From: Mesorhizobium loti
Lineage (GTDB): Bacteria; Pseudomonadota; Alphaproteobacteria; Rhizobiales; Rhizobiaceae
Reading direction: 5' to 3'
Assembly: GCA_014189435.1 (NCBI GenBank)
Contig: CP050293.1
Coordinates: forward strand, 563,001-627,000
Length of the DNA: 64,000 nucleotides
Shown: positions 13,969 to 28,904 of the stretch, one piece after another
Position numbering within the stretch: position 1 is the stretch's first letter
How the letters are laid out: the number at the start of each line of letters is the position of its first letter
Position numbers and translations under genes: made by a program
Notes under the pieces: generated by a model
Told to the model about the DNA's origin: nothing
The model's database searches: none
Seen by the model: only the letters and a program-made list of their open reading frames with translations

Positions 13969-14150
13969 CGTCATCCTAGGGCGAAGCAGGAGCGAAGCTC
14001 CGTCGCGGAGACCCTGGGATCCATGCCGCGACCTTGGACGTGGAGTGCAACAGCGCAGAATTCTGCATCGTTGTGGTGCACAGATGTAACGGCATGGATT
14101 CTAGGGTCTGCGCCGCGTCGCTTCGCTCCTTGCTCCGCCCTAGAATGACG
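13969..14150. repeat. Inverted pair of a dispersed repeat, about 60-bp arms
   Basis: Arm 1 (13969-14028) begins CGTCATCCTAGGGCGAAGCA and ends GGGATCCATGCCG. Arm 2 (14090-14150), read in reverse complement, begins CGTCATTCTAGGGCGGAGCA and ends AGAATCCATGCCG, so the arms are diverged copies of one sequence facing each other across about 60 bases. The intervals up to the neighbouring genes hold no reading frame with coding character. It resembles the many palindromic dispersed repeats of rhizobia. Confidence 0.75.
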
Positions 14151-20728: not shown

Positions 20729-21775
20729 GAGCCTTTCACGTTTTGACGGAAGCGTAGCCTGCGTTTTCGAAGTAGTTCTTGCATTCGGCTGCCTCGATGG
20801 TTTCGACGAGGTGGCCGATGTGGCGCCACGTGTCCTCGACGGTGCGTTTCTGAGCCTGGCGCATCCAGTGTTTGATCTTGGCGAAGGCCTGCTCGATCGG
20901 ATTGAGATCCGGAGAGTAGGGCGGCAGGTACCAAAGCCTGGCGCCGGCAGCCTTGATCATCTGCCTGATCGCCGCCGACTTATGACTTCCCAGATTATCC
21001 ATGATGACGATGTCGCCGGGCTTCAGAACGGTGACGAGCTGCTGCTCGACATAAGCGCGGAAGCATTGGCCGTTGATCGGTCCGTCGAAGACGCAAGGTG
21101 CCGCGAGCCGATCCCAGCGCAGTGCGCCGAGGAAGGTCAGCGTGCGCCAATGACCATGCGGAGCCAAGCCGCGCAGCCGCTTGCCCTTCGGTCCCCAACC
21201 GCGCAGCGGAGCCATGTTGGTCTTGATCCACGTCTCATCGATGAAGACCAGGCACTGCGGGTCGAGGCCGGTCTGCCAGGATCGCCATCGCTGACGCCTA
21301 CGGGCAATATCAGCGCGTGCCTGTTCGAGGGCGAACAGCGTTTTTTTTGAAGCTCAGGCCCTCGCGGCGCAAGAACAGCCACACTGCGTTGTGCGAGACT
21401 TTAACCCCGCGCGCGGCCAACTCATCCTTCAGACCGTGTAGCGTCAGATGCGGTGTCTCACGGACACGCGCCTCGATGAAGGCACGGTGCGGCTCCAGTA
21501 CCCTCTTGCGATGTCCACCCATCTTGCCCGGCGCCACCGAGCCGGTCGTCCCATGGCGCTGCAACAGCTTCACCGCGGCCGAAATCGAAATGCCGAACCG
21601 TTTCGCAGCAGACCGCCGGCTCTCGCCGCTCAAAACCGCAGCCACAACCCGCTCGCGAAGATCATTGGAAAGAGGTCGGGTCATCAGATGCTGGCCTCCA
21701 CTCCAGCCAGCATCTTGAATCACAAAACCGACAAATCGGGAATCCCCTTCGATTCCATCAAGCCGTGAACCGCTC
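20729..21775 (-). mobile_element. Insertion sequence, IS630 family
   Basis: A 1047-bp element bounded by imperfect inverted repeats of roughly 28 bp: GAGCCTTTCACGTTTTGACG at the left end, GAGCGGTTCACGGCTTGATG at the right end read inward. Both ends are flanked by TA (20727-20728 and 21776-21777), the TA duplication expected of IS630. It encodes one DDE transposase in two overlapping frames on the minus strand. It lies between the terminator of the cysteine hydrolase gene and fhs, with its right end inside the fhs stop codon. Confidence 0.93.
20736..21684 (-). CDS. IS630 transposase in two frames
   Basis: OrfA (21684 to 21310, 124 residues) has the helix-turn-helix and winged region (LRERVVAAVLSGESRRSAAK). 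OrfB, open from about 21353 to 20736, has the DDE domain: Asp in VFIDETW, Asp in IVIMDNLGSHKS and Glu in YSPDLNPIEQAF. The frames join at a run of eight A residues (T8 at 21341-21348), after the codons for SFKK. The orfB frame is +1 relative to orfA, so loss of one A by slippage, or a +1 frameshift, gives a standard 315-residue transposase. It is either programmed or a disabling insertion. Confidence 0.85.
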
Positions 21776-24979: not shown

Positions 24980-25066
24980 GCATGATGCCAAAAAGTTGCA
25001 GACTTTTTGGATAACATCATGCGCCAAAACAGTAGGTTAGAACGAAATGACGGTTCATTTCGTTCT
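24980..25066. repeat. Two palindromes between module genes
   Basis: The first (24980-25022) has arms GCATGAT and ATCATGC with inner CCAAAAAGT/ACTTTTTGG. The second (25039-25066) has perfect arms AGAACGAAATGA and TCATTTCGTTCT and overlaps the DUF6638 stop codon. Both look like rhizobial dispersed palindromes and could modulate expression of the downstream DUF2333 gene. Confidence 0.6.
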
Positions 25067-26366
25067 AGTCAGTCAGGCCGTAGAGGCGTGTGCGAAACGC
25101 CACCTTGTCCTTCAAATATGTGGTTTTGAGAACGTCCACAACATGCGATCGCCAGGCGTCGCTGAAGCCGTCATAGTCCTTGTAGAAGCCCTGCTTGTTG
25201 AAGATGTAGCGCGAAACGAAGTCCGACGGCACGAAATCCGAGATCAGCCGGTTGGTCAGCCAGGCGTCGGGGTGGTCGGGTTTGGCGCGGATCACCAGGA
25301 AGCGCTGCTGCGGGAAGACATCCTCGATCTTGAGGTGGCCGAGCTGGGCGATCTCGCGCTTGGCGGCGTTGAGGAAGGGAAAATTGCCGTCCTTGGTGAT
25401 CAGGTCGGCGTGGCTCTGGATCCAGGTCTGCAGCCAGACCTTGTCGACATCGGTCAAATTGCGGTTCGGCTCGGCATCGCGGATCAGCGCGCGCACCACC
25501 ATCTCGGCGCGGTGCTCGAGATAGCCCGAGGCCTCGACCCAGGAGGCACGCGGCAGCTCGATGCGGCCGGTGGTGGCGAGGAACTTGAACACCTTGTCGG
25601 CGTCGTTGATGGAGAGATAGCTGACCTGCCACGGCCGCGAACGGCGGAAACCGGGTGCGGCCGGATCGCCGATCACCGTCGTCATATCGGGGTCGACGAA
25701 CACATAGAGACCACCGAAATGGCTGGTCCAGTAGGCATTGTGGCGGAAGATCACCTGGTCGGGCACCAGCGCGTTCTCGCGGATATCGCCGCAGATCTTG
25801 GCAAGCTCGACCATGCGGGTCAGCATGGCGTTGTCGCGCCAGGCGTCAGGCTCCTGCTTCAGCCGGTCGACGAGCTTGCCGAGTTCGGCGGCCTTGCCCA
25901 GCACATCCTCGGCCGACAGCACCTTGAACTCGACCTGGCTGATCGACAGCAGGTCTTCGATGTCGTTGACCTTTGGAACGGAATCCTCGATCTCGCCGTA
26001 GATCACGTCCTTGATCGTCAGCGCGTCGATGGCGCGCTGGTTCTTGGACATGAACTCGAACATCAGCTGCGAGGTGTTGGAGAAGGCGGTGTGCACCACC
26101 GGCAGGTCGATCTGCGATGGCGTCAGGATGATGAAGCGGCGGTTGACCTCGTTGGGATCGAGATAATCGTAATCGCCGCATTCCTCGGCCACTTCGGGCG
26201 AGAAGCCGGTGCGGTCGATCTGGAAGCTTTTCAGTTTCGTGGGCTTCAAGCCGAATGCGGCCAGCGCCTTGTTGTAGCGCTGGATCAGATGCGGCTCGTC
26301 GACAGTGAGCAAACGGCCGTAGATCAGCTCGTTGTCACGCAGAAGATCGGGTTTCTTGGCGGTCAT
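25065..26366 (-). CDS. DUF6638-family protein
   Basis: A 433-residue soluble protein matching, from memory, DUF6638 of alphaproteobacteria. Recognisable stretches are LLRDNELIYGRLLTVDEPHL, GDYDYLDPNEVNRRFIIL and WLTNRLISDFVPSDFVSRYI. It has no signal peptide or membrane segment and no catalytic motif that I can name. It belongs to the AAA+ module; the DUF559 cassette separates it from the ATPase gene. Without the cassette the gap would be about 72 bases, consistent with an original operon. Confidence 0.75.
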   Translation of the reverse strand: MTAKKPDLLRDNELIYGRLLTVDEPHLIQRYNKALAAFGLKPTKLKSFQIDRTGFSPEVAEECGDYDYLDPNEVNRRFIILTPSQIDLPVVHTAFSNTSQLMFEFMSKNQRAIDALTIKDVIYGEIEDSVPKVNDIEDLLSISQVEFKVLSAEDVLGKAAELGKLVDRLKQEPDAWRDNAMLTRMVELAKICGDIRENALVPDQVIFRHNAYWTSHFGGLYVFVDPDMTTVIGDPAAPGFRRSRPWQVSYLSINDADKVFKFLATTGRIELPRASWVEASGYLEHRAEMVVRALIRDAEPNRNLTDVDKVWLQTWIQSHADLITKDGNFPFLNAAKREIAQLGHLKIEDVFPQQRFLVIRAKPDHPDAWLTNRLISDFVPSDFVSRYIFNKQGFYKDYDGFSDAWRSHVVDVLKTTYLKDKVAFRTRLYGLTD

Positions 26367-26403: not shown

Positions 26404-26464
26404 GCGCCAACGCTGACGTCCCCCTCTCCCCGTTCTTCACGGGGAGAGGGTAAGGGTGAGGGGC
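26404..26464. repeat. Left 61-bp inverted repeat of the DUF559 cassette
   Basis: Reads GCGCCAACGCTGACG, then CCCCCTCTCCCCG, a hairpin, and ends GGGTAAGGGTGAGGGGC. It begins 11 bases after the DUF559 stop. Its inverted partner is at 26898-26958. Confidence 0.85.
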
Positions 26465-26475
26465 GGCGCTAACGG

Positions 26476-26892
26476 TCAAGAACATGCCTCCCCATAGCCT
26501 TTGGCGGCAACAAATCGAAGCTCATGCGTTTCGATACGGCGTTCAAGACGTCCCTTGATCGCGGCCAATATGGTTTCGAGTACAGCTTCCCGATCTTTCA
26601 ACACGTCGACATTCCAGAGGCGGAGGACCGACCAATCATTTGAAACCATGAAGCGATCTCTGGCCTCGTCATACTTGTTGCTGGCATGCTGACTGCCATC
26701 GATTTCGACAACCAGCTGGCATTCCCTACAGGCAAAATCGGCAAGGTAGCGGCCTATCGGAAACTGCCGCACGAACTTATGGCCGTTCAGTCTGCGGTCA
26801 CGCAATTCGAGCCAAAGTGCGTTCTCGGCGTCATTGTCCGACTGACGCAGACGTCTCGCTCGCCCCGTTGTCTCGATTTCTGGTCCACGCAT
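26476..26892 (-). CDS. DUF559 (Vsr/PD-(D/E)XK-like) endonuclease-domain protein
   Basis: A 138-residue protein of the DUF559 family, related to very-short-patch-repair endonucleases. Key features are Glu in DNDAENALWLELR, the core KFVRQFPIGRYLADFAC with Asp, and the second acidic strand VVEIDGSQH. The frame continues upstream through the repeat, but that part is only translated repeat, so the ATG at 26892 is chosen. The likely ribosome-binding GAGGGG lies in the inverted repeat itself. Nuclease activity has not been shown for most DUF559 proteins; a role in moving the cassette is inference. Confidence 0.82.
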   Translation of the reverse strand: MRGPEIETTGRARRLRQSDNDAENALWLELRDRRLNGHKFVRQFPIGRYLADFACRECQLVVEIDGSQHASNKYDEARDRFMVSNDWSVLRLWNVDVLKDREAVLETILAAIKGRLERRIETHELRFVAAKGYGEACS

Positions 26893-26897
26893 GCGCT

Positions 26898-26958
26898 GCC
26901 CCTCACCCTTACCCTCTCCCCGTGAAGGACGGGGAGAGGGGGGCGTCGGCGTTGGCGC
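26898..26958. repeat. Right 61-bp inverted repeat of the DUF559 cassette
   Basis: The reverse complement of 26404-26464 with three substitutions. It begins GCCCCTCACCCTTACC and ends GCGTTGGCGC. It lies five bases upstream of the DUF559 ATG and supplies that gene's ribosome-binding site. Confidence 0.85.
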
Positions 26959-26993: not shown

Positions 26994-28904
26994 CTACGCA
27001 TTCCACAGCCCCTTCTTCTTCATCTCCTCCATCTCGCGCGCGGCGCGTTCGCGCAGGCGGGCGTCGCGCAGCAACTTTTGCACCGCGGAGTCGTCGGACT
27101 TGTCGGAATAGCGGAATTCCGAGTCGGCGTAGCGGTTGATCTCCTGCATGACCATGTCCATCGAGAAGGGGCCGCGCAGTTCCTCGATCATCGCTTTCTT
27201 TTCGTCGTAGCCCTTGTGCATGAAGACTTCCGGCTTCTCGAACCAATCGTCGGGAAGCTCGATGTCCATGGCGCGCATCTTGATGGCGTCGGTGACGTTC
27301 TTGACGGCGCGGCCGGTGAAGCGCGGCTCGGCATCCTTGATCAGGTGCAGATAGGTGCCGATGTCGGCCATCGATTTCGGCGCGCCGTTCTCCTTCATGT
27401 AGCGCTCGTAGATCTTGATCAGCCCATCTTCCTGCGGCTTCTCGTGTTCCTCATAGGCCTCGGTCACGGCGCGCTGGATTTCCTGCGCGGCATAGAGATC
27501 GTGGTCGCCGAGCGGGATCTTGTGGTTCTTGCCGGCAAGCAGCACGAAGATGTCGATGTAGTCGTCGCGCGACTGCGGCCCGTCGACCAGCCAGCGGGCG
27601 CCGGCGCGCTGGCGCAGCGCGTCGTCGACATTTTCGGGATAGTTGGAGAACATGCCGAACGAACAGTTGCCGCGTACCACGGTGGCGGCGCCGGCGAAGG
27701 CGTCCATCAAAACGCCGGTTATTTCCTGCTGGCCGGCCGAGGCGCGGTCGTCGGAGCGGCGCGCCGCCACCTGGTCGATGTCGTCGATGGTGCCGAAGCC
27801 GATGACGCGCGGGTTCAGCACATTGTTGATGAACTGGCGGCAGTTCTGGCCCGACTTGCCCTGGTAGGACGAGATCTGGTCGACGCCGAAATTCTCATAG
27901 GCGAAGGGATAGCCGGCGACCTGGCAATAGCCGTTGACGAGACCGGCGATCATCTGGATCAGCGTCGTCTTGCCGGTGCCGGGCGCGCCGTCGCCGATGA
28001 AGGTGAACAGGAAGCCGCCGAGTTCGACGAACGGGTTCATCTCGCGCTCGAAATCATAGGCCATCAGCATCTTGGCGAGCTTGACCGACTGGTATTTGGC
28101 GATGTGGTTGCCGACGACCTCTTCCGGCTTCTTGAAGGTCATCACCAGCGGTTTTGAGCGCTTGCCCGGCGCGACGTCGAAACCATCGAGGGTGAAGTCA
28201 TCGGCATCGATGCGGATATGGGCGTTCTCGAACGGGCCGATGCCGTCGAAGCGACCCTTGCGCGCCAGAAGCCCGTCGATGGCGACGCGGGCAAAGGCAC
28301 GTGCCCTTGTCATCAGGTCGGCGTCGTCGGACGATCCCGAGATCGCCTTGTCGAGGCCGGCCAGGATCGACTTCACCGCATCCTGCGGCGTGTCGAACAG
28401 GAAGTCCGGCTCGGGGATGTCGTTGGGCGCCTCGCCGTCGCTGTCGATCAGCTGGAAGAGATAGGAGGCGAGGCTGAAGGCTGAAATGTAAGCCGAGGCC
28501 GACAGAAGCTTCTTGAAGGTGGACGCCTCGTCGCCTTCGAGCGGGGCGCGGGTGTTTTTGGCCTGCAGGCTTTCAAGGTCCGAACCTTCTGCAAAGACAT
28601 CCGATACTGCGAGCGCGATGGCCGTGCCGCGCCGGGCGCGGAAGAGCAGAGTATGCTGCGGGATGGTCAGCAGTTGGTCGTCGGGATGGACGGCGCCGAC
28701 GGTCTTCGACAGCTCGACCTCGCGCGTGCGGCGCACCGAGCCGACCGAGACGGTCGAGACGAAGCGGCGGTTGGTGCCGGCAAGTGCGGTGCCGGACTCG
28801 CGTGACGGATCCTCCAGCACGACAATGCGGGTGATGAAGCTTTGCGCGGTGGCGCGGTGTTTCTCGATGGCGGCTTCCGGGATGGTGGTCAGGCCGGTAT
28901 CCAT
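26994..28904 (-). CDS. AAA+ family ATPase of an uncharacterised module
   Basis: A 636-residue protein. An N-terminal region of about 290 residues of unknown fold precedes one AAA+ domain: Walker A GDGAPGTGKTT (304-314), a Walker B variant GTIDDIDQVA (about 371-380), a sensor-like MFSNYPENVDDALRQRAG with probable arginine finger, and a lid rich in helices. The C-terminus (about 560-636) is charged and helical. The AAA core resembles CDC48/FtsH-type remodelers more than MoxR. No protease site is present. It is flanked by the 381-residue unknown gene 24 bases upstream and, past the cassette, by DUF6638. Confidence 0.8.
   Translation of the reverse strand: MDTGLTTIPEAAIEKHRATAQSFITRIVVLEDPSRESGTALAGTNRRFVSTVSVGSVRRTREVELSKTVGAVHPDDQLLTIPQHTLLFRARRGTAIALAVSDVFAEGSDLESLQAKNTRAPLEGDEASTFKKLLSASAYISAFSLASYLFQLIDSDGEAPNDIPEPDFLFDTPQDAVKSILAGLDKAISGSSDDADLMTRARAFARVAIDGLLARKGRFDGIGPFENAHIRIDADDFTLDGFDVAPGKRSKPLVMTFKKPEEVVGNHIAKYQSVKLAKMLMAYDFEREMNPFVELGGFLFTFIGDGAPGTGKTTLIQMIAGLVNGYCQVAGYPFAYENFGVDQISSYQGKSGQNCRQFINNVLNPRVIGFGTIDDIDQVAARRSDDRASAGQQEITGVLMDAFAGAATVVRGNCSFGMFSNYPENVDDALRQRAGARWLVDGPQSRDDYIDIFVLLAGKNHKIPLGDHDLYAAQEIQRAVTEAYEEHEKPQEDGLIKIYERYMKENGAPKSMADIGTYLHLIKDAEPRFTGRAVKNVTDAIKMRAMDIELPDDWFEKPEVFMHKGYDEKKAMIEELRGPFSMDMVMQEINRYADSEFRYSDKSDDSAVQKLLRDARLRERAAREMEEMKKKGLWNA

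Follow-up and report, generated by a model that had tools for sequence, protein, structure and literature searches.

A DUF559 nuclease gene bounded by inverted hairpin repeats in Mesorhizobium loti as a candidate enzyme of a REP-like system

A 64-kb stretch of the Mesorhizobium loti genome (G000:C1:563001-627000, hereafter the window, out of 8.33 Mb) carries a short cassette in which a gene encoding a DUF559 nuclease lies between two inverted hairpin repeats, its arms. We propose, with a probability of roughly 0.6, that the cassette belongs to a REP (repetitive extragenic palindromic)-type selfish or semi-domesticated system resembling REPtrons and REPINs, in which the DUF559 nuclease would take the place of the HUH transposase RAYT (REP-associated tyrosine transposase). 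The proposal draws on the anatomy of the cassette, a statistical link between DUF559 genes and inverted repeats, a match between each arm type and its cognate nuclease clade, the presence of the unit at two unrelated sites, and dispersed units that are polymorphic among relatives. By analogy with RAYTs, the DUF559 protein itself would recognize and cleave the hairpin and drive its copying or mobilization. DUF559 is a common family, annotated as "endonuclease domain-containing protein," and little is known of its function.

The two arms are 66 nucleotides (nt) long, complementary at 62 of 66 positions (94%), and 423 nt apart (Table 1). The initial annotation had described near-perfect repeats of 61 bp; over that length 58 of 61 positions match, as it stated, and the arms extend beyond it. 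Of 13 inverted pairs listed for the window under limits of ≥ 25 nt in length and ≤ 3 kb in separation, they are the longest and best. Each arm is a hairpin in its own right (folding versus shuffles, z of -3.8 and -3.2); its stem, CCCTCTCCCCGT/ACGGGGAGAGGG, pairs perfectly over 12 bp, and next to the stem, on the side toward the gene, lies a tag, TAAGGGTGAGGGGC. The window contains exactly two instances of the hairpin core, TCTCCCN4-12GGGAGA, one in each arm; over 100 shuffles the mean count was 0.06, and none reached 2. The 138-codon gene does fill the interior, as first described, and the upstream arm ends at its ATG. The GAGGGG of this arm's tag stands six bases from the ATG, and judged from this spacing it fits, and is well placed for, the DUF559 ribosome-binding site that had been assigned to one of the repeats.

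Table 1. Features of the DUF559 cassette and its neighbors, in window coordinates
Feature	Position	Strand	Basis
DUF559 (PF04480) Vsr-like nuclease gene, 138 codons, type A	26476..26892	-	PF04480 E 3.8e-35; invariant residues; predicted fold
Upstream arm, type A hairpin repeat, ends at DUF559 ATG	26893..26958	-	Arm alignment
Downstream arm, type A hairpin repeat, inverted relative to upstream arm	26404..26469	+	Arm alignment
Hairpin core of upstream arm, 12-bp perfect stem CCCTCTCCCCGT/ACGGGGAGAGGG	26912..26940	.	Folding
Hairpin core of downstream arm, 12-bp perfect stem	26422..26450	.	Folding
Tag TAAGGGTGAGGGGC of upstream arm; GAGGGG, putative DUF559 ribosome-binding site	26898..26911	-	Sequence; ribosome-binding role inferred
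Tag TAAGGGTGAGGGGC of downstream arm, facing gene	26451..26464	+	Sequence
AAA ATPase gene, upstream neighbor (coding order), stop codon borders site	26994..28904	-	PF00004; same neighbor in relatives
DUF6638 gene, downstream neighbor (coding order)	25065..26366	-	PF20343

The arm repeat, here called type A, is dispersed through the genome. With a 70-nt type A query, E ≤ 0.01 was reached by 23 matches, of which ten span at least 59 nt with 92-100% identity, and E ≤ 1e-6 by 12; both arms are included in these last two counts. The initial annotation had supposed that the repeat ends might enable spread, and about ten near copies indeed lie beyond the cassette context, most of them gene-less. The eleven displayed loci with dispersed copies represent ten places (L004 and L018 being the same), which are at unrelated sites; two of the ten, L024 and L025, fall off the pattern used for orienting copies. 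Six places (L004, L006, L007, L008, L017, and L020) carry two-hairpin units of ~140 bp, in each of which a half of a related type, B' (CCCCTCATCCGCCTGCCGGCACCTTCTCCCC...), and a type A half are inverted relative to each other and the tags point outward, which is a REPIN-like design. At L003 and L005 a B'-type repeat instead stands farther out from the type A copy, in the direction of its tag. Dispersed units are polymorphic: of eight sites compared, each in up to five close relatives, four (L004, L006, L017, and L020) were ~130-190 nt shorter in at least three relatives. The broader hairpin TCTCCCN4-12GGGAGA was counted 339 times in the genome versus 4 for the reversed pattern. A known RNA element was rejected as an identity for the repeat, the only two matches being sub-gathering and taken as chance.

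Inverted repeats are a frequent companion of DUF559 genes. Among 206 confirmed relatives the best 80 were used, and 76 of these had enough flank. Inverted repeats scoring at least 18, the threshold for passing, surround 60 of the 76 loci, compared with 2 of 446 other open reading frames (ORFs) of at least 100 amino acids on the same contigs, which upholds the link between nuclease and repeat first suggested for the window. More distant alphaproteobacterial DUF559 loci passed in 14 of 29 cases versus 0 of 91 control windows. Plasmid carriage is rare, with 25 of 72,556 plasmid records matching the window's protein at E ≤ 1e-15; flanks were read for six of the 25, and four plasmid-collection records pass (Azospirillum lipoferum, Sphingomonas, S. 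meliloti, and Deinococcus psychrotolerans). The D. psychrotolerans gene, from outside the phylum, lies between paaD and paaZ and has long inverted repeats with a score of 53. The A. brasilense (score 12) and E. coli (score 9) loci are below the threshold, yet such repeats stand on one side of each.

The E. coli DUF559 gene, ycjD (L323, L326, and L327), lies between sapF and fabI and runs into a CCCTCACCCCAACCCTCTCCC repeat; under a lenient cut-off, relatives of this repeat occupy 18 places in the median genome. At L323 an 18-bp perfect inverted repeat, CACCTCATTCTGACAAGA...TCTTGTCAGAATGAGGTG (2937-2979), ends directly before ycjD. Of 5,375 E. coli genomes with a match, 2,013 lack any one place that covers 80% of the sapF-ycjD-fabI stretch; the one such genome that was read has other genes beside fabI.

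Arm type was found to follow the nuclease clade. The window's genome contains four DUF559 loci (five matches, one gene being split in two frames): the window locus has type A arms, L009 and L011 have inverted repeats of types C and D, and upstream of the split gene, L012, stands a type E repeat. These other three cassettes are likewise present or absent among relatives, their exact ends being unreadable. Classing of 42 rows by arm pattern across the genus left four unclassed, which were treated as a seventh group beside A-F. On the genus DUF559 tree the classes require nine changes (minimum 6) versus a mean of 22.2 for shuffled labels, and none of 200 shuffles was as low. Classes A, B, and C each form one side of a branch, and class F needs four changes because the unclassed rows lie among F rows. 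Where proteins are less than 70% identical, the arms within a cassette are more alike than orthologous upstream arms in 985 of 1,178 ordered pairs, which come from 39 loci and are mutually non-independent. Above 70% identity orthologous arms are more alike than the arms of one cassette, so homogenization of the arms is slow. At L069, two type F DUF559 genes that are 91% identical point the same way, separated by ~1.1 kb in which a small unrelated gene lies, and such pairs are also listed in G026, G040, and G057; the type F pair is a recent local duplication.

Covariation was analyzed in 144 alphaproteobacterial genomes, mostly one per family, that were searched for the hairpin, DUF559, and the RAYT domain PF01797. 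The counts exclude the window's own genome, leaving 143; a strong DUF559 match is one at E ≤ 1e-20, hairpin excess is the hairpin count over that of the reversed pattern, and genomes with an excess of at least 8 are termed hairpin-rich. Such an excess was present in 21 of 37 genomes with strong DUF559 versus 3 of 106 without (Fisher, P = 2e-12), in 19 of 32 versus 0 of 46 when genomes of at least 2.5 Mb were compared, and in 19 of 37 versus 3 of 106 after two arms were subtracted per DUF559 gene. The remaining 16 of 37 strong-DUF559 genomes have no excess of this hairpin, the only repeat type counted. Among 61 Mesorhizobium genomes, 59 have a DUF559 match and ten a type A nuclease (at least 79% identity, one in two pieces); type A repeats, less two, number a median of 10 in these ten genomes versus 2 in the other 51 (P = 4e-4).

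RAYTs showed no comparable relation to the repeats. They were found in 5 of 24 hairpin-rich genomes across the class versus 31 of 119 others (P = 0.80), and of 61 Mesorhizobium genomes, 7 have a RAYT-domain match versus 50 with type A repeats (E ≤ 1e-6). Both figures speak against a rather unlikely alternative, in which the repeats would be ordinary REPs that depend on some other enzyme, such as a RAYT, for their movement, and the DUF559 gene would have become trapped between two of them and hitch-hike by recombination. Such a passenger would fit with most repeat copies having no gene, with the movement of REPs elsewhere that is ascribed to RAYTs in PMC2817692 and PMC8049555, and with the one weak RAYT-like match in the window's own genome. 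An arm type that matches the nuclease clade is not expected of a trapped gene, however, and in the stretch read the genome's RAYT-like gene (L100) is flanked by a different inverted repeat: inverted GTGCACTGTCACCGTAATTC stands at its sides (~1177-1200 and 1901-1926), unrelated to the DUF559 arms. A RAYT as the driver is thus unsupported, being rare in the genus and unlinked to hairpins across the class.

The site of the cassette, between an AAA ATPase gene and a DUF6638 gene, has had many occupants. A shared neighbor family groups 43 of the 80 DUF559 loci, from Mesorhizobium, Aminobacter, Shinella, and Ensifer, and a DUF6638 match is present in 60 of 61 Mesorhizobium genomes, one merely as a fragment. 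The AAA/DUF559/DUF6638 arrangement is old, with repeated loss and replacement, and a recent insertion at the site in the window's own lineage is rejected because the same arrangement spans several genera. The junction was tried in 73 loci, truncated locus L061 having been left out beforehand, and two had no flank match; of the 71 compared (68 different), 51 hold DUF559, ten are empty or nearly so, and ten hold gene-less repeats. Relatives that lack the cassette at the same site, expected in the initial annotation, therefore exist. Eight of the ten empty junctions have just 9 nt from stop to start (e.g., TAG-AGGTAGGCA-ATG). The gap between the AAA and DUF6638 genes in the window is 627 nt, and the earlier calculation that removing 555 nt would leave 72 is correct as arithmetic but does not describe these eight empty sites.

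Arm types at the junction were assigned for 48 cassettes (38 type A and 10 type B, with three mixed or unclassed omitted). They require one change on the DUF559 tree (support 99/96; 0 of 500 shuffles) versus ten on the tree of flanking-gene DNA, where at least seven are forced by well-supported branches and the total is no better than that of shuffled labels (mean 9.2). One change against ten indicates that the nuclease and its own arms enter and leave together; judged from these trees, nuclease and arms are exchanged as a unit. Most type B units begin no more than ~15 nt from the AAA stop codon and reach to a few nt short of the DUF6638 start codon, with GGAGAAGG of the type B arm in the position of the former putative ribosome-binding site. 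L206 and L167 have ~600 nt extra in between. The CAAG seen at both borders of the window's cassette had been taken for a possible constant 4-bp target duplication; this was not supported: the left CAAG includes the arm's first base, and the motif is not conserved in relatives.

Type A genes were also found at a second, unrelated site, behind a 28-codon ORF (our own reading), in two lineages represented by L146 = L297 (M. prunaredense) and L197 = L302. The M. prunaredense gene found here is nested (97/94) together with L143, the copy that M. ventifaucium carries at the window site. DNA homology between the two begins in the left hairpin and ceases where the right arm's linker ends (527 columns, 93%); the remaining matches pair one arm with another, and the surrounding DNA shows none. 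A unit bounded by its terminal inverted repeats is found at a changed site, as in an insertion sequence. The initial idea of a minimal mobile element is borne out insofar as a related arm-bounded unit occupies an unrelated site, and fails as a simple recent insertion in the window; a REPIN/RAYT-like model is better than a simple insertion element.

The repeated occupation of a single locus, together with a predicted nuclease fold in common, recalls the EDxHD homing endonuclease I-Bth0305I. The cassette might accordingly be read as a free-standing DUF559 homing endonuclease that cuts the cassette-less junction and is copied by double-strand-break repair, with the arms as landing pads or insulation. 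We regard this as unlikely: it leaves unexplained why dispersed gene-less repeats follow DUF559 from genome to genome, why a copy stands at an unrelated site, and why each nuclease clade has an arm type of its own. The DUF559 gene also differs from I-Bth0305I in that it is not in an intron or intein, as far as can be read from the DNA, and in that the hairpin repeats bounding it spread in gene-less form as well.

For the window's DUF559 protein, the best named matches are from Mesorhizobium. In Pfam it matched PF04480 and, below that family's cut-off, PF18741, and no other family at E ≤ 0.001, including the HUH tyrosine transposase PF01797 or a recognized transposase. D52, D65, and H69 are among the residues invariant in 12 DUF559 homologs, and the predicted fold matches 3hrl, I-Bth0305I, and Vsr. 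The likeness to Vsr extends to Caulobacter VsrA, which shares the DUF559 domain according to PMC12907096; the present gene differs in its repeat-bounded setting and in that no methyltransferase was found among the five neighbors scanned, a distant partner being possible. An ordinary repair role, with DUF559 as a Vsr-like mismatch-repair nickase and the arms as terminators or messenger-stabilizing hairpins, is very improbable in view of the inverted flanks at only 2 of 446 neighboring ORFs, the absence of a methyltransferase from those five neighbors, the arm type that follows the clade, and the unit at two unrelated sites. A reading as an anti-phage system was rejected, DUF559 having no PADLOC match.

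In the REP-type system that we propose, the gene and its two inward-facing hairpin arms would form a unit inherited for long periods, lost or replaced at the same site by units of other nuclease and arm types, and appearing now and then at a new site. DUF559 would recognize its cognate hairpin and introduce a nick or a cut at that place. Cutting would copy or transfer the cassette itself and the short gene-less two-hairpin (REPIN-like) units, and target places may include those just after stop codons and near ribosome-binding sites.

Several observations weigh against this proposal. A scored inverted repeat is missing at 16 of 76 DUF559 loci and at 15 of 29 distant ones. In the genus set (the 30 best DUF559 loci of other Mesorhizobium genomes, five of them misplaced where contigs end early), 10 of 25 usable loci pass 18 with 250-bp flanks, and type C loci, whose repeat stands solely on the upstream side within the flanks read, make up 14 of the 15 misses. 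Type A counts are compressed at the high end, 15 candidates having been scored in most Mesorhizobium genomes, and type A repeats also occur in genomes without the type A nuclease, with up to 18 copies in G041, which nonetheless has an A-armed relative at 59%. On a host tree built from ~1.4 kb of flanking genes, DUF559 presence or absence requires 11 changes (at least nine forced) versus 17.6 for shuffled labels; it is clustered, and part of its history is therefore plain descent. Same-site swaps may reflect homologous recombination carrying the cassette with short flanks. No constant target-site duplication was found at the compared junctions, others in relatives being too diverged to read, and divergence of intergenic sequence in relatives likewise made the exact empty-site junctions of the dispersed units unreadable, their presence or absence being clear.

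The type C misses stand before one same downstream gene, which we read as glyoxalase-like. Loci with this upstream-only arrangement before the same gene are L071, L078-L086, L088, L090, L091, L093, and L094, and these DUF559 genes are perhaps a domesticated form.

PMC2817692 and PMC8049555 describe RAYTs as flanked by two inverted REPs, covarying with REPs, single-copy, and vertically inherited. The DUF559 cassettes resemble such REPtrons and REPINs in having a small nuclease gene between two inverted hairpin repeats, in the dispersal of the repeats, also as two-repeat units (here with halves of two related types, A and B'), in the covariation of repeat type and enzyme type, and in long persistence by descent with rare plasmid carriage. 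They differ in that the enzyme is a PD-(D/E)XK Vsr-like nuclease rather than an HUH tyrosine transposase, in that the tag is GAGGGGC (TAAGGGTGAGGGGC) rather than GTAG or CGTC, and in the changed site of the cassette, whereas PMC2817692 found no change of chromosomal location for RAYTs. The CGTC-tagged REPs, which have no known transposase partner (PMC3733652), are likewise a palindromic repeat family, with a different tag.

In the open literature we found no report linking DUF559 to palindromic repeats, nor DUF559 with "inverted repeat," most subscription journals and bioRxiv lying outside this coverage. Within that literature, our results suggest a self-spreading DNA system whose enzyme had no prior association with such repeats. 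More tentatively, it is possible that DUF559 proteins are the dedicated mobilizing nucleases of a second, unrelated class of REP system, widespread in bacteria and reaching Deinococcus and perhaps E. coli, in which hairpin repeats would be moved or copied by PD-(D/E)XK cleavage and not by HUH tyrosine chemistry; where genomes lack RAYTs, many of their short palindromic repeat families would then be due to DUF559. If DUF559 is the partner enzyme, a large class of repeats gains a mechanism and a protein family gains a role, and a PD-(D/E)XK nuclease would be shown to run a REP system.

Two further features of the window were noted. On the minus strand at 20736-21723, beside a gene resembling formate-tetrahydrofolate ligase, are two ORFs that we take, from their motifs, to be an IS630-type transposase split in two frames. 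At 13969-14150 there is a second palindromic dimer, CGTCATCCTAGGGC...GCCCTAGAATGACG, the ends of which resemble, in our own reading of PMC3733652, the CGTC-tagged REPs.
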